Shown piece by piece: positions 10,078-26,063 of a stretch of 59,669 bases of DNA; within the stretch, counting starts at the first letter, position 1, and every line of letters begins with the position of its first letter. The translations under genes and the position numbers were made by a program. The DNA is from Spirochaetales bacterium. GTDB lineage: Bacteria > Spirochaetota > Spirochaetia > DSM-2461. Below the pieces are notes generated by a model that worked only from the letters and a program-made list of their open reading frames with translations, was not told the DNA's origin and did not search any database. Location of the stretch: positions 1 to 59,669 of the forward strand of contig JAFGXR010000084.1 in the NCBI GenBank assembly GCA_016936555.1, read 5' to 3'.

Positions 10078-10602
10078 ATGTCTATGCGGATGATTCGATT
10101 CAGAGGAAAGGAATACAAACACATCAATTTCAACATCAACAGCCGTTCCGAACTGAGCTCTATTCTGGACAATCTGGGAGAAATGGAAATCCCCGGACTG
10201 AAAATAGATAAAGAGCTTTTTTTTCACTCTATTTCCGAACTGGTCAACAACTCCATATGCGCCCATCGCGAGAAAAGCGTCAACCATCCCGTCCGGCTGC
10301 GTTTTTCTATTGACAGTGAAGATCTGGTCATCACAATCCGGGATAAAGGAAAGGGATTCGATACGAATGATCTTCCGTACAATCTCGATGATCCTGTTTC
10401 CGCTATTGATATTAACGGCAGAAAATTCCAGATTTACAGGGAAAAATACAATTACAAGCGCTTCGGAACAGGTTTATTCAATGCTAAAAGAATATTTGAC
10501 AGCTTTCAACTGGATTTTTTTGACGAAGAAGGAACTCTGATACCCTACGATGCCTATCCTGTTGAAGGAACACTTATCGTACTAAAATCAAAACTTTCTT
10601 GA
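10078..10602 (+). CDS. HATPase-domain protein, anti-sigma-factor/serine kinase type
   Basis: A stand-alone GHKL ATP-binding domain of 174 aa, as in SpoIIAB/RsbW-type regulators. The N-box is ELVNNSICAH (E54, N58 hold Mg-ATP), G1 is DKGKGFD (89-95), and G2 is FGTGLFNAK (129-137). There is no dimerisation or receiver domain, so it is not a normal histidine kinase. Three ATGs stand close together (10078, 10084, 10090) and none has a good ribosome site; the first is used here. It is followed at 100 bases by a STAS gene and then a second HATPase, so it likely acts in a partner-switching pathway. Whether it phosphorylates the STAS protein is inferred. Confidence 0.8.
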   Translation: MSMRMIRFRGKEYKHINFNINSRSELSSILDNLGEMEIPGLKIDKELFFHSISELVNNSICAHREKSVNHPVRLRFSIDSEDLVITIRDKGKGFDTNDLPYNLDDPVSAIDINGRKFQIYREKYNYKRFGTGLFNAKRIFDSFQLDFFDEEGTLIPYDAYPVEGTLIVLKSKLS

Positions 10603-10702
10603 CTGTGCCTTTTATACAGTGATAAAATCGCATTAAAAAACAACTGGTTCATTCCGGCCATTCATCCGGGTTTTCGAAATTCAAATTAATGAGGATATCA
10701 AT

Positions 10703-11044
10703 TTGGAATTAAAAATCATGAAGAGCAATGACATTTATATCATTGATGTAAATGGAGAGATGGATCTGTACAATTCGTACAAACTCAAAGATCTCGTAAT
10801 CAAAATGCTTGATAAGAAGGTTAATAAGTTCATTATCAACCTGAATAACGTGGAATATATCGACTCAAGTGGTATCGGTGCATTGATTTTTATCTGCTCC
10901 ACATTAAAAAAGAGCAATCTTCATCTCTATATCAGCAATATCAGAGGCTCTGTTAAAAAAGTTATCGAGCTGACTAAACTCACAGGATACCTTCCTCTGG
11001 CGGGGACGGTACAGGACGCTCTGGAACTGCTGAAAAAAGTATAA
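10703..11044 (+). CDS. STAS-domain anti-sigma-factor antagonist
   Basis: A single STAS domain of 113 aa, as in SpoIIAA/RsbV. The phosphoacceptor loop is YIDSSGIGAL, with Ser56 just before Gly57 as the expected phosphorylation site. The start is TTG at 10703, chosen because GAGG lies eight bases upstream and the frame begins with a normal beta strand. The unphosphorylated form would bind its HATPase partner and free the target; phosphorylation would break the interaction. The next gene, a HATPase, begins 10 bases downstream and is likely its partner. No sigma factor or PP2C phosphatase is visible in the window, so the output must lie elsewhere. Confidence 0.9.
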   Translation: MELKIMKSNDIYIIDVNGEMDLYNSYKLKDLVIKMLDKKVNKFIINLNNVEYIDSSGIGALIFICSTLKKSNLHLYISNIRGSVKKVIELTKLTGYLPLAGTVQDALELLKKV

Positions 11045-11054
11045 GAGGTAAACT

Positions 11055-11597
11055 ATGGCAAAAATGATTTTGAAAGATAATAATCACCCCCTGTTTAATA
11101 CGGATCAAATGTTTTATAAGGAATTCCCCAGCGATTTCCGGCAGATCCGTTATTTCACACTTTTAATTGTCCAGAAAGCTCCGCCGGAAATTAAAGAACT
11201 GAACCTTCTCGAACAGCAGATAAGCGAGCTGATTAAAAACGCCGTTAAGCACGGAAATAAAAGTGATCCCGATAAGAAGATAAAGGTCTGGTATTACTTT
11301 TCACAGGAAGAGACGCGGCTGATTGTCGAAGATGAAGGAAAGGGCTTCACCAAAATTGATGAATGGAATGATTTTAACGCCAAACGTCAGGATTGTCTGA
11401 AAAATAATGATTTTGAGAAACTGGCTGACTACGTTGCTTATACAACAGAGGACAGCGATTATCACGATGGCGGTAACGCCATGTTCGCCGCACTGGAATT
11501 CTGGAATGAAGGAGTCGTTTTTACAGAAAAAGCCAACTGTGTGGCTGTCGGAAAAACATATCCCCGGAAACAGAAAGGGATCACAATCGGCGATTAG
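11055..11597 (+). CDS. Second HATPase-domain protein, anti-sigma-factor type
   Basis: A 180 aa GHKL ATPase domain. The N-box ELIKNAVKHGN (58-68) and G1 DEGKGF (93-98) are clear; the G2 region is GGNAMFAAL (~139-147), where the usual GLG glycines are replaced by GGNA. An insert between G1 and G2 (~100-138) is long and charged. RBS: AGAGGTAAACT before the ATG. It is co-transcribed with the STAS gene 10 bases upstream, and the unit ends in a terminator. Having HATPases on both sides of one STAS protein suggests that they compete or act in sequence on it. Similar proteins with a HATPase core are found in spirochaetes, but their roles are unclear. Confidence 0.8.
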   Translation: MAKMILKDNNHPLFNTDQMFYKEFPSDFRQIRYFTLLIVQKAPPEIKELNLLEQQISELIKNAVKHGNKSDPDKKIKVWYYFSQEETRLIVEDEGKGFTKIDEWNDFNAKRQDCLKNNDFEKLADYVAYTTEDSDYHDGGNAMFAALEFWNEGVVFTEKANCVAVGKTYPRKQKGITIGD

Positions 11598-12450: not shown

Positions 12451-13686
12451 ATGAGATCAGAAATTATAAGTTATCTGGAAGAGCAGTTTTCCGTTCCGGT
12501 TCGCGATCCGCTATGGAAACATATATATATGACAAAAGGACATAGGGATATAATAAATCACAAGGACTTCAGGTTTCTCGACGGCCTGAGACAGCTTGGT
12601 CCAGCGAGTCACCTGTACCCCGGAGCAATTCACACGAGACTGAATCACAGCATCGGTGTTTTTTATCTGGCCAGACAGATTATGCGTGCTCTTGTCATCT
12701 CCCCGGACTGCCCGCCCCTGACTCTAGACGGAGTAAAGGCATTCCTCTCTGCAGCCCTGCTTCACGATCTCGGGCACTTCCCCCATGCCCATGCACTGCA
12801 GGATTTTCCATTGAAAGACCACGAGGAATTATCAGGAGAGATGATACGGAACGGTTCGATCAGAAAAATCATCAGGGATTCGGCTCATACAGATCCTGAT
12901 ATGACAGCCGCTATTATCGACAAAAAAAGCGAGTGGCAGGGTAACAGCGAAATACTCTTTTTCAGGAATATTCTTTCCTCTCCTGTCGATCCCGATAAAC
13001 TGGACTACCTCAATCGCGATGCCTATTTCTGCGGAGTTCCCTACGGAACCCAGGATATCGATTTCGTCATTTCACAGATTTACCCCACCAGAGAAGGCAT
13101 TGCCATCAGCCGTAAAGGAACATCAGCCCTTGAAAACGTCCTGTTTTCAAAATATCTTATGTACAAGTCGGTCTACTGGCATAAATCGGTAAGGATCTCA
13201 ACGGCCCTGATCCGAAAAGCTATATATGAAGCATTGAAATTCGGTTATCTGGAAAAGGAAAAGTTCTACCGGATGAACGATCACGATTTTCACAAGTTCT
13301 GTTCCGAAAGCGGAGAGGAAGCCCTTCAGCTTGTCGATAAGGCGGAGTTTCCCTGGAAATACAAAGTTATTGAAGATGTCTGTTTCGACAGGAATTCTCA
13401 GCTCCACAGAAACCTGACTGATGAGGAGTTCAAATCAGATTATGAAAAAGAACTGAACCGGCGGATAAAAGAAGACACGGGCTACGATTCGGGAATCTAC
13501 GATGTTCTAATCGATGTCCCGTCAAAAATATCCTTCGAGCTACCCTTTGAATCGGAAACCGTATTTACAAGACCGGTCGTCGACGGCTTTACTGAATCGC
13601 TTAGAAGGGTCCGCCTGATCGTGAAGGAGGAAGCCGCAGTGAAACTGAAAGAGAAAAAGATTCTGCTGAAGGGCTTATCATCCTAA
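12451..13686 (+). CDS. HD-domain phosphohydrolase, SAMHD1/YwfO-like
   Basis: A 411 aa cytosolic metal-dependent phosphohydrolase. Metal ligands: His66 (RLNHSIGV), His105-Asp106 (LLHDLGHFPHAH) and Asp182 (VDPDKLDYLNRD), the pattern of dNTP triphosphohydrolases and the SAMHD1 family. The motif DYLNRDAYFCGVPYG is the usual family signature after the last Asp. The RBS is GAGGAAG, eight bases before the ATG. The substrate (dNTP, or another nucleotide) cannot be told by reading. Its 3' end overlaps the 3' end of the voltage-sensor gene on the other strand by nine bases. The family name is well supported by motifs. Confidence 0.88.
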   Translation: MRSEIISYLEEQFSVPVRDPLWKHIYMTKGHRDIINHKDFRFLDGLRQLGPASHLYPGAIHTRLNHSIGVFYLARQIMRALVISPDCPPLTLDGVKAFLSAALLHDLGHFPHAHALQDFPLKDHEELSGEMIRNGSIRKIIRDSAHTDPDMTAAIIDKKSEWQGNSEILFFRNILSSPVDPDKLDYLNRDAYFCGVPYGTQDIDFVISQIYPTREGIAISRKGTSALENVLFSKYLMYKSVYWHKSVRISTALIRKAIYEALKFGYLEKEKFYRMNDHDFHKFCSESGEEALQLVDKAEFPWKYKVIEDVCFDRNSQLHRNLTDEEFKSDYEKELNRRIKEDTGYDSGIYDVLIDVPSKISFELPFESETVFTRPVVDGFTESLRRVRLIVKEEAAVKLKEKKILLKGLSS

Positions 13687-14793
13687 GAGACTCGACAGAT
13701 CTCCGAGGTCTTCCAGTTTAAGAACGCTTTCGCCTTCGCTGTTCTCTTCATTCTCTCTCGCCTTGAGGGTTAGAAATTTATCATTGTACTCTGCGGAAAG
13801 ACGGAAAATATCATCCTTTTTATATCTGCCGGGAATATCCACTTCGAGGTTGTAGTTTTTTTCTTTCATTCCCTTCAGCATGACAAAAACAGGATCGGAG
13901 ATGGTCATGGCAAAGTGGGGGCTGTAAAACAACATCAGGACAACGACCGTAAAAACAATAGTGAGGAGAAGCAGCATACCGGGCAGAGCCTCTTCGGCAT
14001 TCTGGTACCGGAGATCAAAGAAAACCTCTGTTTTGTTTCTGTATTCATACTGATAGTCTCCCGGTCCGAAATCTCTCTCGTACTGGCTGTCGGTGAATCG
14101 GGAGAAAACAGACTTTCCGTTGTTTTTGACCAGAAGGATATCGGTTCGTGTATTGAGAATCCGGCTCAGACTCTCTCCTTCTTTTAAAGAAGAATCGATC
14201 TGCTCGACGACTTTTCCGCGGACACTGTTTTTAACTTTCATCGCCGGAGAGGCGATCAGGGCTTCGGAAAAAAGAAGAGAGCCGAAAAACATAACGGCAA
14301 TGACCGAAACGACAACTGTCGAGATAATTCTGGTCATATGCCTCTGTGTCATAACCGAATCGACAGATTTGATACTCCGGAAGATTTTCAGGACTCTCAG
14401 CATCCTGAGTATTCGTGCGACCCGAACGGCTTTGACAACTTTGAGTATGTTCAGAACACCGGCACCGCCGGCAAATGCCGCTCCGGAAAGGAGAAAAAAT
14501 ACCGTAGGACCCGAATTGAAAAGCAGAAGCGGAACTGATGCGACAAAATCGACCCAGCCTCTTTTGTGAACAAGATATTCAACCGTATCGCCTTTTGCAA
14601 TGGAGGCCGTATAGCGGAAGATGAATTCGAGTGTAAAAAACAGATCAAAGCCGAAACCCGTAAAGAGCAGGACTTTCCTGATGTTCCAGTCCCACATCAA
14701 ATAAGTAGCCAGATCTTCTACAAATGTAAACACTATGACCAGCGTGATAGCGATCATGACCAGGTTTTCCAGAAATTTCTTGAAAGCTTTCAT
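13678..14793 (-). CDS. Voltage-sensor-like membrane protein with periplasmic loop and HAMP-like segment
   Basis: Membrane protein of 371 aa. Residues 10-32 (S1), 41-62 (S2, with D50, E56, R60), 80-94 (S3, D82) and 113-140 (S4) form a voltage-sensing domain. S4 has basic residues at every third position: K118, K121, R124, R127, R130, R133, K136, R139. A fifth membrane helix (~153-178), a ~90-residue extracytoplasmic loop (179-268, with DILLVKNNGKSVF resembling a small sensor strand pair) and a sixth helix (~270-292) follow. No pore loop or selectivity filter (TVGYG or similar) is seen. Residues ~300-345 look like a HAMP segment (KDDIFRLSAEYNDKF). It is followed by a C-terminal acidic tail. A pore may be too divergent to see; annotation as plain ion channel would be unsafe. 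Confidence 0.75.
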   Translation of the reverse strand: MKAFKKFLENLVMIAITLVIVFTFVEDLATYLMWDWNIRKVLLFTGFGFDLFFTLEFIFRYTASIAKGDTVEYLVHKRGWVDFVASVPLLLFNSGPTVFFLLSGAAFAGGAGVLNILKVVKAVRVARILRMLRVLKIFRSIKSVDSVMTQRHMTRIISTVVVSVIAVMFFGSLLFSEALIASPAMKVKNSVRGKVVEQIDSSLKEGESLSRILNTRTDILLVKNNGKSVFSRFTDSQYERDFGPGDYQYEYRNKTEVFFDLRYQNAEEALPGMLLLLTIVFTVVVLMLFYSPHFAMTISDPVFVMLKGMKEKNYNLEVDIPGRYKKDDIFRLSAEYNDKFLTLKARENEENSEGESVLKLEDLGDLSSLLG

Positions 14794-14800
14794 AATCTTT

Positions 14801-15730
14801 CTACCATCCGTTTTCCACTGATATGTTATATAACTCGCTCAGCATATCTTTATCGAATCCGTTGAAGCGGTAGTTTTTCCTGGCGATATTAAACCAGCTG
14901 CTGTCAGCCGAGACGGCTCCGCGGTCTATCTTCATGGATGGTCTGTACCCCGTGCCCATGGATGCGAAAAGAGACGCCATCCTGGCTGTTGCTTCAATGG
15001 TATTGTTATCCTGAAACGAGAGATTGCTATTAATTCCGCTGCAGATAACATCTTCGGGAACCAGAGTCAGTTCCTTTTTCAGTTCTTCGATGACTTTCTG
15101 AACATAATGTGTTTGAACCATCCCGGAATTGCTTTTATTGGCTCCCATCTTTCCCGGGGGTTCCATCAGGTGTATGGCCGGCCGCAGAAGCATGGATAGA
15201 TAGATGAAATTCTGGATTTCCGACTGAGCCATTCTGAGGCGCTGAACTTTGGTCAGTTCGAACAGAACATACTTTCTCCGTTCAAATGCCGGAACAAGAT
15301 ATTTGACAGGCAGGGCTGTGCTTATGGCCCGATGTGGACCCGTCAGATTCCGCCTGATAATGGGTTTCTTTATATTCTTTTCCAGAAACTTGAAAATCTG
15401 AAACCGTATTCCCTCTTCATTGAGAGATTTTGCTCCCAGAAAAGCGAAAAAGGAATAATTTATTTTTTCATAGATAATTGTTCTCAGTTCCGGAACAAGC
15501 AGGGAATCGGTTATATCAAAAAGAGCGGTATAGAGGATATTGCTTATATCCATCAGATTCCTGCCCGGGAAAAAGGCGGGAGAGCTCAGCGTCGGATATA
15601 ATTTATTCCCGTTAATGTGGAGAAATTGTAAAATCTGCTCTTCCTTCTGCAATTCTGAAAGATCAGAAAGAGTGGGATTAGCCAGAAGCTTCAGTATAAA
15701 TTGTTTCGCTTTTTCCTGTTCACTTATCAT
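14801..15730 (-). CDS. Conserved-type hypothetical protein upstream of the voltage-sensor gene
   Basis: A 309 aa, mainly helical, cytosolic protein without signal peptide or membrane segment. I recognise no domain. It starts MISEQEKAKQFILKLLA, with no Shine-Dalgarno sequence but with a TACAAT hexamer nine bases before the ATG (minus strand). The downstream gene, the voltage-sensor protein, begins seven bases after its stop, so they form an operon and may act together. Some stretches (ILYTALFDITDSLLVPELR, GANKSNSGM) look conserved in feel, but this cannot be tested here. Confidence 0.6.
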   Translation of the reverse strand: MISEQEKAKQFILKLLANPTLSDLSELQKEEQILQFLHINGNKLYPTLSSPAFFPGRNLMDISNILYTALFDITDSLLVPELRTIIYEKINYSFFAFLGAKSLNEEGIRFQIFKFLEKNIKKPIIRRNLTGPHRAISTALPVKYLVPAFERRKYVLFELTKVQRLRMAQSEIQNFIYLSMLLRPAIHLMEPPGKMGANKSNSGMVQTHYVQKVIEELKKELTLVPEDVICSGINSNLSFQDNNTIEATARMASLFASMGTGYRPSMKIDRGAVSADSSWFNIARKNYRFNGFDKDMLSELYNISVENGW

Positions 15731-15783: not shown

Positions 15784-18700
15784 GTGAGATTATTTACATA
15801 CTTTTTTTCAGTTCTGATTCTCATTTCCTCAAGCGTTCATTATATATTCGGTCAGGACACCGCATCAATTGAGCGGGAAGAAGCACCGACAGCCCTGTGG
15901 CAGATGGATATTAATGACGCAGATGTGGATCTGTATATTGCCGGTTACTGGAAAATCGGAGTCATTGGTGGTCTTTCGATGGAATCAGGACCCGATGGAA
16001 TCATCTTTCCCGCCGCCTTTCCGGGACTGACCGATTTCAGGTTCTATCAGGAACCCGATATAACAATCTCCCTCTGGCTTAAAAACCGTTATTATCTCGA
16101 AACAACCTTTCTCGAAGGCTTTGACAAGAATATTTATGCCATAGGTTACCGGGGCGAAGAGGGAGAAATCCTTCAAGCCGTCCGCATCGGCAATTCGGAA
16201 ATCGCTATAGAGAACTATGAGGGGATCAGTGTACCGGCTCCCGAATACAACACTCCGGGGCTCAGTGCGGATTTTCAAACAGGGATTTCAACTCATGATG
16301 TCATGATCAGGTACGATCCTTCAAGTGAACAGAAAAAAACCTTCCTTGGCGAATACGAAGTCACGGAAGAGCTTCTGGAGCTGGGCGATTTCAAGCGGGG
16401 ACAGTACTTTATTCTGCCCGACGATAATATCGATACAGGTTCTCTGGAAATCTATATTGCTGATAAAAACGGCATTTACACATCTATTGACGGGAACGGC
16501 GATCCCTACAGGAATTTCCGGAAAGCATCTGCTGATGAGTATTCCTTTTCCAATGCCAGAGGGACTGTAACTCTGACGGAGCCGGCGGAGAGCGATGTTG
16601 TTGTTTATTATGCAAAGAGCGGTTTGCCTGTAGGTAATATTTCACTTGGAGCAGGATTTATCGTCCCCCTCATTAATGGAGAACCGGATCCTTCCGATAC
16701 CCCGGAGGATTTCAATTGGACCGAACCGGATTCATGGTTTCCCGATCTGGGTAACTATAACGTCAGCCGGGCGGTTACGGTCAACAGTCTGACCGGTTTG
16801 AAAATATTCTCACCTGGCACAATTTCGCCTTTTGAAAGCTACAATATCTATGACATAGATACGGCGCTCCCATCGGAAAAGTGGAAAACCGAAGCCTATC
16901 TGGCTGACAACAGTTTGCGGGAATCCGATGACTCCGGAAACTATAGTTTTACACCGGAATCTGACACATCAAGGCTGATTGTTAACTACAATAGTGAATC
17001 AGATCCACGTTCCGCTTTTAACCGCTATCCCTTTGCTGATTCCTATCCTCAGATTTACACTGTCGCCTCTACTGAAAGATCAAAAACCGGACGCGTCATA
17101 CTGCTTTCGGTGCGGAGCGGTTCAGGTATATCTCTAGGTCCGGGAGTGGTGCCGGGATCTGAACAGATTTCAATAAACGGTGCTCAGACAGGAGCGGCTG
17201 CTATCGACTACAGCTCCGGAAAAGTGACATTCAGCCGCTACATCTACCCCCATGACCGCATTGAAATCCTCTACAGAACCGAAACAACCGATATGGCCGG
17301 AGGAGATCTCCTGGTCGCTCAGGGGAACCGGTTCTACCCGAATGAGAATCTTGAACTCTATTTCGCCGAAATGTTCCGCTGGAATATAGCCGGAGACGCG
17401 GCTACAACCGAATCGGAGAGCTCTCCGGGGGGGATAACGGTCGCGGGAGGACTGAGCTATAAAAGAGAGAACTTCAATCTTTCGGTCCGGGGGAGCGGAG
17501 GATTCTATACGCCCGATACAACCGGGACTCTCCGCGTCTCAGGTATGGAGGAAAGCGGTTACAGCTTTTCTGCGGGGAGAGATCTGGTAAAACCTGTTCC
17601 GGGAGAGATTTGGAACGGGTCCGCCCCCCTTTCAACAGGAAGAGCTGATTTAACTTACAAAGATTATCTGTCTACAGATGGATTGGGTCAGTTTTTCCTG
17701 AATTCCTACAACTGGTCAGGAGCTGCCGAAAATGGTGATTTTGAAGGGCCTTCTCCTGCTGCTGAATTATCCTCAGATCCTTTCGGCGGTAATGTGATGG
17801 TTTTCGATTATGATCTAGCCCCGGGAGAATGGTCTGCGGGAGATCTACTTCTCACCTCGGACGGTCCGATTGATTTATCGAATTACGAATCAATATCCCT
17901 CTACATACAGACGGAGAATCCTGCAGATATTACAGCAAAAATCCTGCTGGGCGAAAATGGTGAAGCAGATGATTACGATGGGGACGGATTTACGGAGAAT
18001 TATAATGAATCCCTAATCGTAGCAATCGGTCCCGTCGACCTGACCGGCACTGCGAACCAATGGAAAGAAATCGAACACAGTTTCACTTCCGAAGAAAGGA
18101 AAAAACTGACGAGAAGCCGTTCGGTGAGAATTCTCATCGAATCTGCCGGAGGGGCGACCGGCCGGTTGATGGCAGGCGGCCTTCTTTTCGAAGGATCGAT
18201 ATTCAAAGGAACCGTTTCCGATGGGGATTCATCGGGTAATGATAATCTCTACACAGAAGAGAGAAGCGATATCGACTCAACGGTAGCGGCTCTCTCAACA
18301 TCATTTTCAGAAATTAACGAAATCTTTCACGCTGCAGGAGAGGAGCAGAAAGCCCTCAGAATTAAATGGGAATTATCCGATGCCGCTCAGGACGGCTGGA
18401 CTGCCGAAACACATACGCTGTCGGTTTCTCCCGATTCCTACAGCACTTTCAGCTTTTACATTCAAAGCGCCTATACTCCGGGAATTTATAATATTGAACT
18501 GACCGACAGCCGTAACCGTGGGTATCACTTCTCCTATACCATAACGTCATCAGATTGGGAAAAAATCAATTTGTCTCTGGAAAGCGGAATCGTAACCCTA
18601 AGTGACGGGACTCAAATAACGGCGGCCGCCATTGATGCCGATAGGGGTGAGCTCAACAGATTTTCAATTGAGAGCAAGAGCCTGCCTTCCGACACAGGCA

Positions 18701-20430
18701 CAATCTACCTCGATGAACTGCATTACAGCGACCCTTCTTTCTCCCTGGCCGGAACAATTGAACTCCTAACCGATTACACACGTGCCGGTCCTCTTCTGCA
18801 ATCATCAGGAGGATTTCCCTTTTTTGCAGACTTCTCCATCTCAAATGAGTTCACCTATTACGGAGGAACAGTTCTCTCCGATGCAGCGGAACCCTACAGC
18901 TCGATGAGGAACTACACATCCATCGGCATAACCATGCTTCTGCTGGAAATTCAGGCGAACGGGGAAGTCAATTATGGAGAATCGGGAACACGTCTTTCGG
19001 GAAGTCACTCACTCCTTTTCCCTTCGGGCTTCCCCTATGCTCAATTTTCTGACAGCTACAGCCGTTCGGGGACAAATGATTCTTCGGCGATGACAAGAGC
19101 CAACAATTTTAAGCTGAGTTTTCCCGGTTACGGAAATTTGTTCATATCAACGGCTGCAGACGGGAATGAGGACAAGCTTGTTCAGAACTGGTCAGCTGAA
19201 ACAGACTGGAATCTCTTTGATAAATTGATGATCAGGTTGAAAAGCCGTCTGGAACAAACAGAAGATTGGGATTTCCGTAATAAAGGCAATTATTTTTCCA
19301 ACTGGATCAATGATTATTCCCTGATCGCCCCCTATGACGAGAATGTGTCAAACAGGAATTTCAATGTTTCATTCAAAATCGCCCTTGAAACGGTACCCCT
19401 GGGCTTTATTTTCGACCCGGCCTTATCTTTCGATCTCGATGAGAATTCCGGAGGAAGACAGACAGATTATGGAACATTTGGATTTTCCATTCCCGTCACG
19501 TTAGTATCTTCCGATGAAAGGACGTGGGTCATAACTCCTTCATACAGCAGGGATTTTATGGAACGGAGAGACTCAGTTGATTCGGGATCGTTCCGGCAGG
19601 GGTTTAAAAACCTGTTCGAAGACCTATCAAACTGGATGCCTCTGACCAGCTTCATCCCCTTTTATGAATTATTCGCCGATGATCAGGTAAATCTTTTTGA
19701 AGAAAAAACATCCTCCCTCAATTCTGCGGCCTACACACCGGGATTCGCCATCAATTTCGCGACAGAATCGGGTTCAGGAATTAAAGATCTGTTTATTCCC
19801 AACAGCTTCGAAGCTTCGGCCACAAGGACATTTACGAAAAAAGATGACGGCTTTTCCAGCATAAACAAATTCAATTTTCAGCTCAAGCAATCTGCCATCA
19901 ATCTGTTCGGCCGTTTCGGTGTGTATGAAACTTTCAGTTTTTATGACAGCGAAGATATAACATCATCACTTCAGTTTCTGATGGAAGGGGAAAATGGAGA
20001 TTTCCCGGTTCCGAAAGAACTTGTTTATCAGCACTATCTGGCTTTTTATGGGGCAGAGAACAGGACCTTGATTCTTGAAAACCGCTTTTCATCTGATTTT
20101 GCAGAAGCTGTCCTAAGCGACACGCTCGACTTAAACTTCCTGTGGCGCCGGGAAACCCGGGAGAAATTCAGTCTCGATTTCCTGAACAGACTTATAAAAA
20201 ACGAACATTACTGGTCACATGAGGAAAGAGTGCAACTCGACATCATCCTGCCCGGAGAGGATAATGATGACGGGCTGACATCATTAAATATCTTCCTGAA
20301 GCACATATCCACCGCCCATGTTCCGGGTCTCGGAGCCCTCAAAGGCTGGCTCACCCTGGGGTTCTACAAAGATGAGGAACGGTTCAGGACCGGTTTCGAA
20401 GCGGGAATAGAAATGGAGATCAGCTTCTAG
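15784..20430 (+). CDS. Giant exported outer-membrane protein, SprA-like in style
   Basis: A 1548 aa protein with a signal peptide (MRLFTYFFSVLILISSSVH, cut near FG-QD). The N-terminal two thirds consist of beta-rich modules. A recurring pattern of a loop followed by a strand such as AAIDYSSGKVTFSRYIYP, then DRIEILYRT, recalls Bacteroidetes SprA-type proteins. Residues ~700-800 and ~920-960 look like carbohydrate-binding jelly-roll modules (ISLYIQTENPADITAKILL). From ~970 on the sequence alternates polar and hydrophobic residues and ends in Phe (MEISF), typical of an outer-membrane barrel. The start is GTG without ribosome site. It is the first of three consecutive exported barrel genes. The relation to SprA is by eye only and uncertain; no catalytic motif was found. 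Confidence 0.65.
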   Translation: MRLFTYFFSVLILISSSVHYIFGQDTASIEREEAPTALWQMDINDADVDLYIAGYWKIGVIGGLSMESGPDGIIFPAAFPGLTDFRFYQEPDITISLWLKNRYYLETTFLEGFDKNIYAIGYRGEEGEILQAVRIGNSEIAIENYEGISVPAPEYNTPGLSADFQTGISTHDVMIRYDPSSEQKKTFLGEYEVTEELLELGDFKRGQYFILPDDNIDTGSLEIYIADKNGIYTSIDGNGDPYRNFRKASADEYSFSNARGTVTLTEPAESDVVVYYAKSGLPVGNISLGAGFIVPLINGEPDPSDTPEDFNWTEPDSWFPDLGNYNVSRAVTVNSLTGLKIFSPGTISPFESYNIYDIDTALPSEKWKTEAYLADNSLRESDDSGNYSFTPESDTSRLIVNYNSESDPRSAFNRYPFADSYPQIYTVASTERSKTGRVILLSVRSGSGISLGPGVVPGSEQISINGAQTGAAAIDYSSGKVTFSRYIYPHDRIEILYRTETTDMAGGDLLVAQGNRFYPNENLELYFAEMFRWNIAGDAATTESESSPGGITVAGGLSYKRENFNLSVRGSGGFYTPDTTGTLRVSGMEESGYSFSAGRDLVKPVPGEIWNGSAPLSTGRADLTYKDYLSTDGLGQFFLNSYNWSGAAENGDFEGPSPAAELSSDPFGGNVMVFDYDLAPGEWSAGDLLLTSDGPIDLSNYESISLYIQTENPADITAKILLGENGEADDYDGDGFTENYNESLIVAIGPVDLTGTANQWKEIEHSFTSEERKKLTRSRSVRILIESAGGATGRLMAGGLLFEGSIFKGTVSDGDSSGNDNLYTEERSDIDSTVAALSTSFSEINEIFHAAGEEQKALRIKWELSDAAQDGWTAETHTLSVSPDSYSTFSFYIQSAYTPGIYNIELTDSRNRGYHFSYTITSSDWEKINLSLESGIVTLSDGTQITAAAIDADRGELNRFSIESKSLPSDTGTIYLDELHYSDPSFSLAGTIELLTDYTRAGPLLQSSGGFPFFADFSISNEFTYYGGTVLSDAAEPYSSMRNYTSIGITMLLLEIQANGEVNYGESGTRLSGSHSLLFPSGFPYAQFSDSYSRSGTNDSSAMTRANNFKLSFPGYGNLFISTAADGNEDKLVQNWSAETDWNLFDKLMIRLKSRLEQTEDWDFRNKGNYFSNWINDYSLIAPYDENVSNRNFNVSFKIALETVPLGFIFDPALSFDLDENSGGRQTDYGTFGFSIPVTLVSSDERTWVITPSYSRDFMERRDSVDSGSFRQGFKNLFEDLSNWMPLTSFIPFYELFADDQVNLFEEKTSSLNSAAYTPGFAINFATESGSGIKDLFIPNSFEASATRTFTKKDDGFSSINKFNFQLKQSAINLFGRFGVYETFSFYDSEDITSSLQFLMEGENGDFPVPKELVYQHYLAFYGAENRTLILENRFSSDFAEAVLSDTLDLNFLWRRETREKFSLDFLNRLIKNEHYWSHEERVQLDIILPGEDNDDGLTSLNIFLKHISTAHVPGLGALKGWLTLGFYKDEERFRTGFEAGIEMEISF

Positions 20431-20497
20431 TTTTTTGCCGGTACTAGTGTTTTTCCCGTACTTCCGATATATATTATTACTACACAGGAGGATTTTT

Positions 20498-21964
20498 ATG
20501 CCTATTAGAAAAGCCATACTGATTTCAGTGTCGCTCATATTTTTATTATCGCTACCTCTTTTCTCTCAGGAGGATTTGAGCGGAAGTGGAGCCGGTGGAC
20601 TGGATTTCGGTTTCGGACTGGCCATAGGTGCCGTAAATCTGCTTGATGAGAATAATAACAATACAGTCTACAATTCAATCAAACTCAATCCCGATTTATC
20701 CTTCGGAAAATTCGGAATCGGCCTGGACATCGATTTCCGTTTTACCATGGATACATCCAACGGAGATTCCGGATTCAGAATTTATAAACCTGACTGGGTT
20801 CTTGAAGATGGATCACCATCAGACTATCTGAATCTGTATCTGTCGAAATTCGACTATATCCGCTGGGGAATTTCTGGAGACGATCTATTCGCCCAGATCG
20901 GATCACTGGACAGCGTAACTGTCGGAAACGGTTTTATAATCGGCGGTTATACCAACGAGATGTTCAAGCCGGCTAAAAAATATACGGGATTCCGTTTTGA
21001 ACTGGATACAGCTCTCTTCAACTGGCCCTATATGGGTATCGAATTATTTACGGCGAATGTGTCGGAACTGGATCTGATGGCAGCCCGGTACTATGTCAAA
21101 CCGCTGGGCGGCATTAAATCTCCAGTCTTCAGCGGACTGGAAATAGGCGTGACTTTTGCCCTTGATAGAGACCCCTTCTATTTCCTCTACGATCTGGATG
21201 ACGATAATGACGATACAACCGATGGTTCACCTGACGGATACTACGATTATACTTTAATTCCCGGAACAAACGATAGTATTTCAACAAGTGAAACTCCCCG
21301 GACCGTTTTCGTTTACGGTGTTGATCTTATGCAGCCTCTCCTGGATATAAAAGTTTTCACCTTGTCTCTCTATGGTGATTTTGTCCTGCAGGGGCTTCAA
21401 ACTCCGGCTATGGGAGGAACGGCAGGGCTCAACGGCTCCCTATTATCCTTTATCGGATGGAATGCCGGACTGATCTTCAGAGGGGATGATTTCGTTCCGA
21501 CATATTTCAACAGGAGCTACGATCTCGACCGTCTGACAAAATACTATGTCTATAACAATGATGGTTCGGATCCTGAGCTCGCACCGTCCGGAATCGACTA
21601 TAATGCCTCTCTTGGTTTCCATTTCATGGATGGCGGAATCTCTTTCGTCGCTCAGGTAAGCGGTCCCTTTGCGGAACCGACCAGGACAGCAGCGGAAGCC
21701 CCGTTCCAGTATCCTCATCTCATGGCACTCTTTACTATTGCCGAAGGAATTATTCCCTATTTTGATATGAGCTTCTGGTATGATAAACAGGGAATAGATG
21801 AGTGGGCGGCCCTGGTGAGTGCCGAGAACGCCCTGATCGGAGGCCGTTTGAACTTCCGGATGGCACCGGCCGTAATCTCCCTGCAGGTCGATGTAAAATA
21901 TGATCCTGCCCTGGCTGAGTCCTGGGATGTAACAACCAAACTGGAAACAGGAATCCAGTTCTAA
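20498..21964 (+). CDS. Outer-membrane beta-barrel protein
   Basis: The start at 20498 (MPIRKAILISVSLIFLLSLP, cleavage near FS-QE) is preferred over an upstream frame because GGAGG lies six bases before it. The mature ~465 aa is a run of amphipathic strands (for example KFGIGLDIDFRFTMD, YFLYDLDDDNDDTTD loops) and ends in Phe (LETGIQF), the usual BAM signal. Loops are rich in Asp and Gly. A block starting AQIGSLDSVTVGNGFIIGGY closely parallels LKIGNLDNMSIGHGAIMNGF of the next gene, so the two barrels are paralogous. It lies 67 bases after the giant gene and 13 before the FecR-barrel gene, probably one operon. A porin or surface role is likely; the substrate is unknown. Confidence 0.8.
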   Translation: MPIRKAILISVSLIFLLSLPLFSQEDLSGSGAGGLDFGFGLAIGAVNLLDENNNNTVYNSIKLNPDLSFGKFGIGLDIDFRFTMDTSNGDSGFRIYKPDWVLEDGSPSDYLNLYLSKFDYIRWGISGDDLFAQIGSLDSVTVGNGFIIGGYTNEMFKPAKKYTGFRFELDTALFNWPYMGIELFTANVSELDLMAARYYVKPLGGIKSPVFSGLEIGVTFALDRDPFYFLYDLDDDNDDTTDGSPDGYYDYTLIPGTNDSISTSETPRTVFVYGVDLMQPLLDIKVFTLSLYGDFVLQGLQTPAMGGTAGLNGSLLSFIGWNAGLIFRGDDFVPTYFNRSYDLDRLTKYYVYNNDGSDPELAPSGIDYNASLGFHFMDGGISFVAQVSGPFAEPTRTAAEAPFQYPHLMALFTIAEGIIPYFDMSFWYDKQGIDEWAALVSAENALIGGRLNFRMAPAVISLQVDVKYDPALAESWDVTTKLETGIQF

Positions 21965-21977
21965 AAAGGAGGCACAG

Positions 21978-24227
21978 ATGAAAAAACTGTTACTGCCCAT
22001 ACTACTGATCCTGGTTGGACTGCCTGTTTCCCTGATGGCCCAGGAGGAACCGACCGCCGTTCTGGAGTATTTTGAAGATCCTTATGGTGATATGATTATT
22101 ACCGATGATACCGGTACGGCACTCGACTATTTCGATTTCGGAGAAGACCTGCCTCCGGGGTTTTCCATCAGTACGGGAAACGGTATGGCCGAGATCCGAT
22201 TGTATCCAAACGGCACAATTCTGAAGCTCGCGGAAAATACGGATTTTTCCATCACCAATCTGCAGGGATACAGAGGGAGCCCCTCTAATGAATTTTCCCT
22301 GCTTGCCGGTAAGATGCGAACCATTGCGGCGAGGACTTCAGGCTCAAACTATTACAATGTACGCACGCCGACGGCTGTTATGGGTGTCCGGGGAACGGAT
22401 TTTATAAATGAAGTCGGCCAGGGCGCCGCCAATGTCGTTGTCCGGGAAGGGCTTGTAGAAGTCATTCCGTTCAGCGGGAACCCCGTAATGGCGGGAGCGA
22501 ATCAATCTGTCAACACTCTGTCCGAAGTTTTTCAGGCGACAGATCTACCGCCCCAGCAGGTGAATCAGATGTTCAGAAATATGGGTTTCAAACGGCTTTC
22601 CCCCGCCGATGTTCCCGGTCATACACCTATGGCTGATGAAGAGCCTGTGGCGGAAGCTCCTTTGGAAGAACAACCGGCGGAGGAAGAAGTCGCCGAAGCT
22701 CAAGAGCCTGCACCGGCTCCGGAAGTTCCAACCCTCGACGAACAACAAATGGCCGATGCTCAGGAGACAGAAAAAAAAGAAGAGAATAAGCCCTCAGCCG
22801 ATTCCAAACTGGCGCAAGTCCTCAGAGACATCATAGGGATGGAAATCGGAACGACAACTATAAACGGGAACACCTATTCCAAAGTCGTTTTTCAACCCCG
22901 GGTGGAGTTGGGGAAATTCAGGCTCGGTCTTTTTTTACCCATTATCTATACAGACAATATGTTCGATCCTGCCCAGTGGTACCAGCCCGAAGGGAATCAC
23001 GAATGGTCTTTCGGTACAGATCAGAACGGCATAATTAAAGATGTTTTGCTCGATATACTCAGAGACACGATGCTCAAGCTTAAATATGTCGAATATGGAG
23101 ATCAGGGATGGGATCCTTTCTATCTTAAAATCGGAAACCTCGATAATATGTCTATCGGTCATGGAGCCATCATGAACGGCTTTGCCAATGATGCGGAGTT
23201 CCCGGCCATCAGAAAAGTCGGTCTCAATACGGGCTTTGACCTGGGCGTTTTCGGAATGGAGCTTGTAGGCGACAATCTTGCCGATCCGTCCATAGTGGGT
23301 GGTCGACTCTTTCTCAATCCCTTCAAGGGTTATGATCCTTTCCAGATAGGCGTTACAGGTATTGCCGATCTATTCCCGGCAAGGGGAACCGAGGCGGATC
23401 CCGCTGACTACGGTGACCCCTGGCTCCTGGCTTTCGGCATGGATCTCGAACTGTTCAAAATAAGCAGAGACAACTTCAGGATTCTGATGTTCGGCGATTT
23501 TTCAACCATGATGCCTGTTTTCAGAGAAGAGACGAATCTCGATGGCATTCTGATTGAATCTGGCGTGTCTCCCGGAATCTGGCTTGATGATGGCCAGTTA
23601 AAGAACTACGGAATCGTAGCCGGTCTGAGGGGAAGTGTTTTCAGCTTCAACTGGTCTCTGGAATACAGAATGAGTTCAGGAATATACAAACCGACTCTTT
23701 TCAATGCCCATTATGACAGAAACAAGCTGAATTATCTCTCCGAGATAATCAATTATCTCTGGATGGCCAAAAATGATGATCCCGATACTCAGGAACTGGT
23801 AATGGGTATTTACGGAGAAGCCGGATTTTCCTTAAAAGACAAGATCTCGCTATCTGCCGGTTACTACTGGCCATGGGAAATCAGCAGCGCCGGTGAGATA
23901 TCCTTTGCCGGGGAAGATGTAATAAAGATAACCCTAGCCGTTACGGACAAACTCATTCCCCCCTTCCCTATCCACGGCAGTATCTCCTATGAGAGAACCC
24001 AGCTTATCAACACCTTCAAGGGAGAAGGAGATCTGAGTCTTTTCGATGCCAATACGGTTGTTTACGGAGAACTGGTTTATCCTCTGGCTCCAGTAGTCGA
24101 TCTTGTATTAGGAGCTTCGACGACGATCCTTGTCGATCCCGATACAGGAGAAACTTTGTTTGAACCTGGAACGACACGACCTCAGGTAGCCCCTGTCATC
24201 AACATAGAGACAAGAATCCATTTTTAA
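21978..24227 (+). CDS. FecR-domain outer-membrane beta-barrel protein
   Basis: 749 aa with signal peptide MKKLLLPILLILVGLPVSLMA. A FecR fold occupies ~55-165 (GNGMAEIRLYPNGTILKLAE; NVRTPTAVMGVRGTDF). It is followed by an acidic, Pro-rich linker ~225-275 and then a barrel ~290-749 ending in HF. In FecR proteins of TonB systems the domain senses or regulates a sigma factor; in spirochaetes it is often found at the start of surface barrels, where its role is unknown. The RBS is AAAAGGAGG, seven bases before the ATG. The barrel shares the NLDNMSIGHGAIMNGF block with the upstream protein. Likely co-transcribed with the two preceding barrel genes; mutL follows 15 bases later. Confidence 0.88.
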   Translation: MKKLLLPILLILVGLPVSLMAQEEPTAVLEYFEDPYGDMIITDDTGTALDYFDFGEDLPPGFSISTGNGMAEIRLYPNGTILKLAENTDFSITNLQGYRGSPSNEFSLLAGKMRTIAARTSGSNYYNVRTPTAVMGVRGTDFINEVGQGAANVVVREGLVEVIPFSGNPVMAGANQSVNTLSEVFQATDLPPQQVNQMFRNMGFKRLSPADVPGHTPMADEEPVAEAPLEEQPAEEEVAEAQEPAPAPEVPTLDEQQMADAQETEKKEENKPSADSKLAQVLRDIIGMEIGTTTINGNTYSKVVFQPRVELGKFRLGLFLPIIYTDNMFDPAQWYQPEGNHEWSFGTDQNGIIKDVLLDILRDTMLKLKYVEYGDQGWDPFYLKIGNLDNMSIGHGAIMNGFANDAEFPAIRKVGLNTGFDLGVFGMELVGDNLADPSIVGGRLFLNPFKGYDPFQIGVTGIADLFPARGTEADPADYGDPWLLAFGMDLELFKISRDNFRILMFGDFSTMMPVFREETNLDGILIESGVSPGIWLDDGQLKNYGIVAGLRGSVFSFNWSLEYRMSSGIYKPTLFNAHYDRNKLNYLSEIINYLWMAKNDDPDTQELVMGIYGEAGFSLKDKISLSAGYYWPWEISSAGEISFAGEDVIKITLAVTDKLIPPFPIHGSISYERTQLINTFKGEGDLSLFDANTVVYGELVYPLAPVVDLVLGASTTILVDPDTGETLFEPGTTRPQVAPVINIETRIHF

Positions 24228-24242
24228 AGTACTATCTCTACT

Positions 24243-26063
24243 ATGAATGGTAGAGAAACGATACAATCCCGGAGCGTAAAAAAGCTCCGGGATTCCGTCG
24301 CGAGAAAAATAGCGGCCGGCGAGGTAATCGACCGGCCTAATTCCGTTGTCCGGGAACTGCTGGACAATTCTATCGATGCCGGTTCCACCGAAATTTCCCT
24401 CTATCTGGAAAACGGGGGGATCACCCGGATCCGTGTCGTCGACAACGGGTGCGGTATGTCCGAGGAAGACCTCAGACTCTGTTACCTGCCCCATGCGACC
24501 AGTAAAATCGAAAGTGAAGAAGATCTCCTTTCCATCAGCAGCCTGGGCTTCAGAGGAGAAGCTCTGTCCAGTATCTCGACATGTACGAGGATGGAAGTGA
24601 TCTCCCGGCAGGAGGAAAGCGAGACAGCCTACAGACTGATCGTCCATGGCGGCCGTGAAATTGCCCTTGAGGAATGGCGAGGCAGCCAGGGAACGATTAT
24701 TGATGCCTCTGAGCTTTTTTACTCCATACCTGCCAGAAAAAAATTTCTCAAGCGCTCATCGGCTGAAACGAGCATGTGCCAGAAGACCTTTCTCGAAAAA
24801 ACCCTTCCTTTTCCCGGAATCAGTTTCCGGTTCTACACGGATAATAACCTGAAGCTGTTTCTTCCGGCATCGAGCCGGAAAGAAAGAATACTGGCAGCCT
24901 GGAAGGGAGCTTTCAACCCCTCTCTTCTTCATGAACTGTCCGGCGAAGAAGAAGGGTTTAAAATAACGATCATAGCGGGAAGGCCTGAATTAAACCGGAA
25001 AGACCGCCGTTTTATTCAAATATTCGCCAACAACCGCAGAATCGACGAGTACGCCTTCGTTCAAGCTGTTCAGTACGGTTTCGACGATGCCCTTCCGGGA
25101 GGAGTTTATCCGGTCTGTTTTGTATTTATTGAAGTAGATCCGCATCTTGTGGACTTCAATATCCATCCGGCTAAAAGAGAAGCCCGCTTCCGTAACCAAC
25201 CGGCTATTCACCATAAGATCGTACAGCTGATTAAGGACTTTCTGTCGGAGTACACTTTCCGATTCAGAAGTGAGTCGAAAGTTGTTGAACAGCCTTCCCT
25301 CCCCGCGCGGGATATGCAAAGCCCATCTTTTGCGCCGCCTTCTGAGAAACAGACCAGCTGGAACGAATGGCGGGCTTTTTCCGGCGCCACTTCAAAAATT
25401 CAGGGATCAAAACCGGCGGTACGCTACGAAGAGCATTATAAACCGGTACACTCTGTTACTGAAACAATGAACAGGATGTCACCGCTAGTGGAAAAACCGC
25501 AAGATACATCCGATGATTTCGAAGGATTGCGCTATATGGGCCAGATTATGGATCTATTTCTTCTGGCTGAATACGATAACCGGCTTTTTATTGTGGATCA
25601 GCATGCAGCGCACGAACGGATTCTCTTTGAACAATTCAAGAAAAAAGCTTCGACGGTTCAGGAGCTCCTCATTCCCGTGGAGTTTGAAACAGACGAAGCC
25701 GAAGAAATGAATCTTGAGAAAAATAAGGAGAAATACAGAGAGCTGGGCATTACTGTCAGTTCTTTGGAGACAGGGTTATGGCAGATGACATCTGTCCCCA
25801 AATCAGCGCTTGACATGGAAGGCGAGCTGGTCCAGTTCCTGAAAACCCAGAAGGGCTCCGTCGGAGAACTGGAGAAGCAGCTCTATGCAACCATGTCGTG
25901 CCGCGCAGCCGTGAAAGACGGAGATCCCGTCGATGCACTGTCGGCTATAGAACTGATAAAAGGGGCATTTCAGCTGGAAAGCGCGCGCTGTCCTCATGGC
26001 AGGCCGATATGGTTTGAACTCTCAAAAGATGAATTATTTGAATTGGTCGGGAGAACGATTTAG
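24243..26063 (+). CDS. mutL: DNA mismatch repair protein MutL with endonuclease motif
   Basis: Matchmaker of mismatch repair linking MutS to the downstream nuclease steps. The N-terminal GHKL ATPase is complete: KIAAGEVIDRP, LLDNSIDAG, VVDNGCGM, GFRGEALSSI. The C-terminal part carries the endonuclease motif DQHAAHERILFE (from ~452), plus CRAAVKDGDP and CPHGRP metal-site motifs. So this MutL should nick DNA itself, as in bacteria lacking MutH. 606 aa is normal. The ATG has no Shine-Dalgarno sequence; TACTAT lies seven bases upstream, so a leaderless or coupled start is possible. The DUF1456 gene follows after eight bases. Confidence 0.95.
   Translation: MNGRETIQSRSVKKLRDSVARKIAAGEVIDRPNSVVRELLDNSIDAGSTEISLYLENGGITRIRVVDNGCGMSEEDLRLCYLPHATSKIESEEDLLSISSLGFRGEALSSISTCTRMEVISRQEESETAYRLIVHGGREIALEEWRGSQGTIIDASELFYSIPARKKFLKRSSAETSMCQKTFLEKTLPFPGISFRFYTDNNLKLFLPASSRKERILAAWKGAFNPSLLHELSGEEEGFKITIIAGRPELNRKDRRFIQIFANNRRIDEYAFVQAVQYGFDDALPGGVYPVCFVFIEVDPHLVDFNIHPAKREARFRNQPAIHHKIVQLIKDFLSEYTFRFRSESKVVEQPSLPARDMQSPSFAPPSEKQTSWNEWRAFSGATSKIQGSKPAVRYEEHYKPVHSVTETMNRMSPLVEKPQDTSDDFEGLRYMGQIMDLFLLAEYDNRLFIVDQHAAHERILFEQFKKKASTVQELLIPVEFETDEAEEMNLEKNKEKYRELGITVSSLETGLWQMTSVPKSALDMEGELVQFLKTQKGSVGELEKQLYATMSCRAAVKDGDPVDALSAIELIKGAFQLESARCPHGRPIWFELSKDELFELVGRTI

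Follow-up and report, generated by a model that had tools for sequence, protein, structure and literature searches.

A voltage-sensing domain joined to a HAMP unit, with a conserved partner gene, in Spirochaetota: a candidate pore-less voltage receptor

The receptor gene and its partner

The stretch of DNA analysed here (59,669 nucleotides, hereafter the window) carries on its reverse strand an ORF of 371 aa with an in-frame ATG. Its product joins a voltage-sensing domain (VSD) to a HAMP unit and is called the receptor in what follows. A second gene, FAM1, lies 7 bp upstream on the same strand and belongs to the same operon. The features of the locus are:

13678..14793 (-): VSD-HAMP receptor gene, 371 aa (ORF and family alignment of 30 homologues)
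14704..14772 (-): S1, about residues 8-30; V19 and T23 conserved, E26 and D27 nearly invariant (hydropathy, conservation)
14608..14667 (-): S2, residues 43-62; invariant D50, F53, E56 and R60, the charge-transfer centre (alignment)
14518..14559 (-): S3, residues 79-92; GWxD, with D82 invariant (alignment, Kv1.2 comparison)
14374..14451 (-): S4, residues 115-140; K118, K121, R124, R127, R130, R133, K136 and R139 (alignment, Kv1.2 comparison)
14329..14373 (-): S4-TM5 linker, residues 141-155; DSxM(A/T)QRH, with invariant M148, Q150 and H152 (alignment)
14260..14328 (-): TM5, residues 156-178 (hydropathy)
13990..14259 (-): extracytoplasmic domain, residues 179-268; low conservation, predicted alpha-alpha-beta-beta-alpha-beta-beta (AlphaFold, hydropathy)
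13924..13989 (-): TM6, residues 269-290 (hydropathy)
13756..13923 (-): HAMP unit, residues 291-346; PHFAxTxSDP ... YNLEV ... DDIFxLaxxYN (hhalign)
13696..13722 (-): C-terminal docking-like motif LKLEDLGDL, residues 358-366 (present in 44/47 of all loci with FAM1 and 0/14 without, the loci not being independent)
14801..15730 (-): FAM1, 309 aa, predicted cytoplasmic (alignment A2, co-occurrence)

The receptor is a single-copy gene in the source genome (4.7 Mb, 134 contigs). It is covered end to end by 30 full-length homologues, 35-88% identical to it and all from one bacterial class, which form the family alignment A1. Purifying selection is strong on both genes of the pair: in comparison with the sister-genome orthologue, the receptor has a dN of 0.078 and a dS of about 2.0, which is near saturation, giving a dN/dS of about 0.04, and the dN/dS of FAM1 is about 0.02. 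The initial annotation had proposed a search for homologues with the same fusion, and such proteins were found in many spirochaete families; the fusion of VSD and HAMP spans the sampled Spirochaetota. No relatives were found on viral contigs.

FAM1 is the conserved partner gene of the receptor. The receptor profile has matches in 135 of 248 class genomes and the FAM1 profile in 112, and FAM1 never occurs without the receptor. The two genes are adjacent and in the same order in the class genomes, FAM1 nearly always preceding the receptor, and the same adjacent pair recurs among 198 genomes across the phylum. The neighbour of 309 aa had been described as an unknown protein, and it belongs to no known family: searches of Pfam, NCBIfam and PDB, including a remote-relative search, gave no match. 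AlphaFold models made from two sequences each are too poor for judging packing or for a search by fold (mean pLDDT of 43 for the receptor and 36 for FAM1), and Foldseek gave no significant match.

Sensor, membrane region and HAMP unit

The VSD was recognized initially from eight basic residues spaced by three in S4 (118-139), together with D50, E56 and R60 in S2 and D82 in S3. All of these are seen in the family. K118, K121, R124, R127, R130 and R133 are invariant in the 30 sequences, K136 is nearly so, and almost every sequence has R or K at position 139; the four S2 and S3 residues are likewise invariant in the 30 homologues, as is F53. In the alignment of the family profile with Kv1.2, F53, E56 and R60 match the SFEFLVR segment of S2, the aspartate of S3 is matched by D82, and K118-R133 correspond to the arginine series of S4. 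It is by these residues that a functional voltage sensor is defined in channels (PMC13095418). Every gating residue is fixed in A1 and in the 30 tabulated FAM1-bearing class loci outside a Borrelia-like group described below. Pfam Ion_trans matches residues 6-175 of the receptor (E 1.6e-12), is matched by 29 of the 30 family members, and ends at profile position 148 of 241. Judging from its residues, the VSD is complete.

The membrane segments after S4 are also as expected. A helix, an outside loop of about 90 residues and another helix had been claimed, and family-mean hydropathy gives TM5 (160-176), a charged stretch (177-268) and TM6 (272-293). The S5 - pore helix - filter - S6 arrangement of a 6TM channel was not found at the sequence level. 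No selectivity-filter motif recurs between TM5 and TM6 among the family members, and the Ion_trans match stops short as stated, which agrees with the initial reading that a pore loop and filter are missing. Neither of the two results named beforehand as refuting that reading, a structure model with a pore helix and filter in 179-268 or homologues of proven channel function, turned up, and no homologue shows channel-like features. Two isolated GYG-like matches were considered as a filter and rejected, both being located in the hydrophilic domain and without conservation. The mean frequency of the majority residue is 0.80 in S4, 0.79 in S3, 0.74 in S2 and 0.70 in HAMP, against 0.42 in TM5 and 0.40 in the extracytoplasmic domain. 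These last two are the least conserved parts, the reverse of what is expected for a channel pore. The receptor is thus predicted to have no pore.

For residues 191-260 of the extracytoplasmic domain, AlphaFold gives the order alpha-alpha-beta-beta-alpha-beta-beta at about 65-80 pLDDT, although the overall model is poor. The domain has no matching family in Pfam or PDB, and therefore no Cache or PAS identity is claimed for it. It is missing in one genus (L146; four genomes of f73) and is therefore dispensable there. The member of 298 aa at L146 (7132-8028) lacks the domain and keeps the VSD, TM5, TM6, HAMP and FAM1.

The HAMP unit follows directly after the last membrane helix. Only a HAMP-like piece had been noted initially, and this was borne out by profile-profile comparison: residues 290-346, taken as a family profile, were compared by hhalign with 26 HAMPs from the same genome, which carries 71 HAMP matches, and gave 87% probability (E 4e-6). 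The controls, 20 column shuffles and three further regions from this family, reached at most 3.2%. The alignment keeps its register between the proline of AS1 (DP) and DDIFxLaxxYN of AS2 (cf. DEIGxLaxxFN in the HAMPs). No single sequence reaches the Pfam HAMP cut-off, and one of the 30 matched at E 0.45. After the HAMP unit there is only a tail of 25 residues; Pfam detected no output domain (MCP signal, HisKA, GGDEF or cyclase) and no PTEN-like phosphatase domain in the receptor. The observation made in the initial annotation is confirmed. The parts of its interpretation that can be read from the protein all hold and support it, while a VSD that senses voltage and drives the HAMP unit is what we infer from them.

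The C-terminal tail and the loss of FAM1

The conserved, acidic motif in the tail (residues 358-366) was overlooked initially. In most members the motif after HAMP is of the type LxLxDDLxDLF, and in deeper lineages it is SLSMDDLL. It was scored by one regular expression. Fragmented assemblies are the source of some loci, and two were set aside, L055 (contig end) and L104 (fused, masked ORF). The ORF at L104 (1952-4639) has 895 aa and consists of receptor-like sequence fused to further, partly masked sequence. In the class, the motif is present in all 30 loci with FAM1 and in none of the 11 without; in phylum loci outside the motif definition the corresponding numbers are 11/13 and 0/3.

The loss of FAM1 was followed on a tree built on the receptor core, from which the HAMP and tail columns were left out. 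There are five changes of FAM1 state, four of them forced by well-supported branches; a first count of at least six independent losses was lowered to 4-5 by the tree. The tail changes in the same way as FAM1 in 3.7 of 4 contrasts and never in the opposite way, and four contrasts cannot reach p < 0.05 in a sign test. Lineages without FAM1 have always lost the tail, mostly the HAMP, and often S4, S2/S3 or linker residues. At one locus (L103) both FAM1 and the tail motif have been lost but the VSD and HAMP are intact, and this locus is sister (support 95) to more decayed lineages, in which HAMP and S4 have degenerated. The pattern of decay fits a selection on the voltage sensor that depends on the FAM1 output.

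The reverse pattern is found in two lineages. One, which we name Borrelia-like by inference, has a chromosome of 0.9 Mb and keeps FAM1, HAMP and a tail-like segment, with S4 only partly retained and E56 lost. In the other, a clade of 27% GC (f51; L144 5514-7297 and L145 7386-9178), all S4 charges are lost, and the HAMP half and a very divergent upstream FAM1 are kept. Since the S4 charges are mostly or entirely lost in these lineages despite the presence of FAM1 and HAMP, voltage cannot be the sole input. The constant part would therefore be HAMP-FAM1, and the inputs would be two and separable, voltage and the extracytoplasmic side.

Proposed mechanism, output and alternatives

HAMP units are parallel dimers, and the receptor would therefore also be a dimer. 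We consider it rather probable that the protein is a pore-less dimer that responds to voltage and signals, by way of its HAMP relay, through FAM1 on the tail, with motility or chemotaxis as the most likely target. Depolarisation or hyperpolarisation would shift the charges of S4 past the charge-transfer centre formed by S2 and S3. Through the DSxMAQRH linker this movement would reach TM5, then TM6 and HAMP. A change of HAMP state may then cause the C-terminal tail to present or hold FAM1 differently, and cytoplasmic FAM1, docked on the tail, would carry the signal onward. The extracytoplasmic domain may act as the second, separable input.

Several observations bear on the output. FliG_C is found in 134 of the 135 receptor-bearing class genomes, the exception being an assembly that is 87% complete and has FliG-bearing relatives, and the receptor is present in one of the 39 class genomes without a FliG match (Fisher p 5e-14, a value that ignores relatedness and is confounded by clade). 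The comparison for FliG across the phylum adds nothing, as that sample is nearly all flagellated. There are 75 flagellated class genomes, out of 209, without the sensor, and for this reason it is not a core part of motility. Genes of the che/fli type adjoin the receptor family in two lineages only. The pair of the Borrelia-like lineage lies after flaA-cheA-cheW/cheR-cheX-cheY, on the opposite strand and separated by one short gene. In two genomes of one genus (G005 and G010) a divergent VSD relative belongs to a tight operon composed of CheY, CheX, a MASE6/Hpt/HATPase kinase, an unknown protein and the VSD, with FliG next; in G005 the genes of the operon are separated by about 8-25 bp, and FliG lies about 170 bp further on. 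The genes around the pair are in most genomes not motility genes, but a mixture of DUF503, ComFB, PilZ, HD, STAS/HATPase and MutL-like genes. Given these mixed neighbours and the adjacency in two lineages, an output to motility or chemotaxis is probable and is taken as a lead with moderate support, not as a result.

The mixed neighbourhood may also be read in another way, with the pair sensing voltage or energy state for an output other than motility, such as c-di-nucleotide or envelope-stress signalling. This is possible but on the unlikely side. Many families have PilZ, PilZ-DUF1577 and ComFB genes close to the pair, the window contains HATPase/STAS anti-sigma-like genes and an HD-domain gene not far from it, and in some clades the pair is missing from most flagellated genomes. 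However, the PilZ/ComFB-type neighbours are mostly on the opposite strand and outside the operon of the pair. It also speaks against this reading that the sensor is confined, across the class, to flagellated genomes and that the related subfamily is encoded in a CheY-CheX operon.

If the target of the voltage receptor is indeed motility, an older problem comes into view. In keeping with such a target, the titles of two studies report a role of membrane potential in the chemotaxis of Spirochaeta aurantia and its block by voltage clamp (Goulbourne and Greenberg 1981, 1983; cited in PMC4841586). A 2020 review counts among the unsolved problems the signalling by which flagellar rotation is coordinated from one cell end to the other, and estimates that diffusion of CheY is too slow (PMC7225975). 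We suggest, tentatively and with more doubt than belief, that the pair is the voltage receptor behind membrane-potential signalling in spirochaete chemotaxis; it would read voltage spreading along the long cell and, via FAM1, set motor reversal or help to keep the flagellar motors at both cell ends coordinated. The VSD-HAMP receptor may be how spirochaete cells convert electrical signals to behaviour. If true, it would be a concrete and deletable candidate for a question about 40 years old, the role of membrane potential in spirochaete chemotaxis, and a bacterial voltage receptor would mean a direct reading of membrane potential as information.

The lineages with decayed S4 raise a different explanation, that the extracytoplasmic domain is the real sensor (of a ligand, of the envelope or of redox state) and the VSD is mainly structural, signalling being again through HAMP and FAM1. 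The Borrelia-like lineage and f51 would fit it, keeping the extracytoplasmic domain, HAMP and FAM1 and losing S4 charges. Outside these two, however, the gating residues are fixed and no part varies more than the extracytoplasmic domain, and L146 and its genus lack the domain yet keep the VSD and FAM1, so that we consider this explanation improbable. An ion channel, either a divergent voltage-gated channel with an unconventional TM5-TM6 pore or an Hv1-like proton-conducting VSD, is very unlikely: the Ion_trans match and the nearest solved structures (Kv and HCN channels) point to channels, and conduction by the VSD itself is known from Hv1 and from mutant VSDs (PMC13095418, PMC10651576), but a pore helix and recurrent filter motif are missing from a region that shows the lowest conservation and does not exist in L146, a HAMP unit and a partner-coupled tail follow TM6, and the six invariant S4 charges are unbroken, while leaky VSDs typically lack one or more (PMC10651576).

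Taken as a voltage receptor, the protein shares parts with several known systems. It has S1-S4, the charge-transfer centre and the R1-R6 register of S4 in common with voltage-gated channels (Ion_trans, Kv1.2/Kv3.1 type, NavAb), which have a pore helix and filter where the receptor has TM5 - extracytoplasmic domain - TM6 - HAMP. Ci-VSP, TPTE, Hv1 and the sperm Na+/H+ exchanger, as described in PMC13095418 and PMC10651576, resemble it in having a VSD without, or apart from, a classical channel pore. All of these are proteins of eukaryotes, in which the VSD acts on a PTEN-like enzyme, on proton permeation or on an exchanger, whereas the receptor is prokaryotic and has a HAMP relay and a separate partner; Hv1 is not among the PDB profile matches of the receptor family. 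Chemoreceptors and HAMP sensor kinases share the TM - extracytoplasmic domain - TM - HAMP layout, and the HAMP is homologous to units of the same genome. The receptor differs from them in having S1-S4 before TM5 and in lacking an MCP signalling, kinase or cyclase domain. Voltage sensors are described as controlling channels, transporters and phosphatases, and a VSD wired to a bacterial signalling relay does not appear in the review passages concerned (PMC13095418). A VSD joined to HAMP was not found in the literature within our scope, subscription papers and preprints being outside it.

Some further loci deserve mention. The CheY-CheX operon at L064 (6588-13165) and L063 (4744-11042) holds a second VSD subfamily with the conserved C-terminus xIxxYIKKxx and without FAM1. 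It includes an unknown protein of 384 aa between the kinase and the VSD; fam40, which occupies the position matching FAM1 in the CheY-CheX operon, has no detectable homology to FAM1. A cluster of ComFB, PilZ, PilZ-DUF1577 and DUF503 lies near the pair in several families (L046 10141-17536, L048 1640-9026), a possible c-di-nucleotide connection. In the window, HATPase-like, STAS and HATPase genes are found in a row (10078-11597, +); they look like an anti-sigma/anti-anti-sigma module and are partly conserved beside the pair. Divergent from FAM1 there is a gene with a GTG start for a protein of 1548 aa without a convincing Pfam match (15784-20430, +), whose homologues keep their place beside the pair in most class loci, FAM1-less loci included. 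It is followed by two adjacent, related genes (20435-24227, +; 509 and 749 aa) that belong to one blast cluster, the second apparently FecR-like. Many genomes have them in this position after the gene for the 1548-aa protein, and a MutL-like gene comes next (24243-26063).
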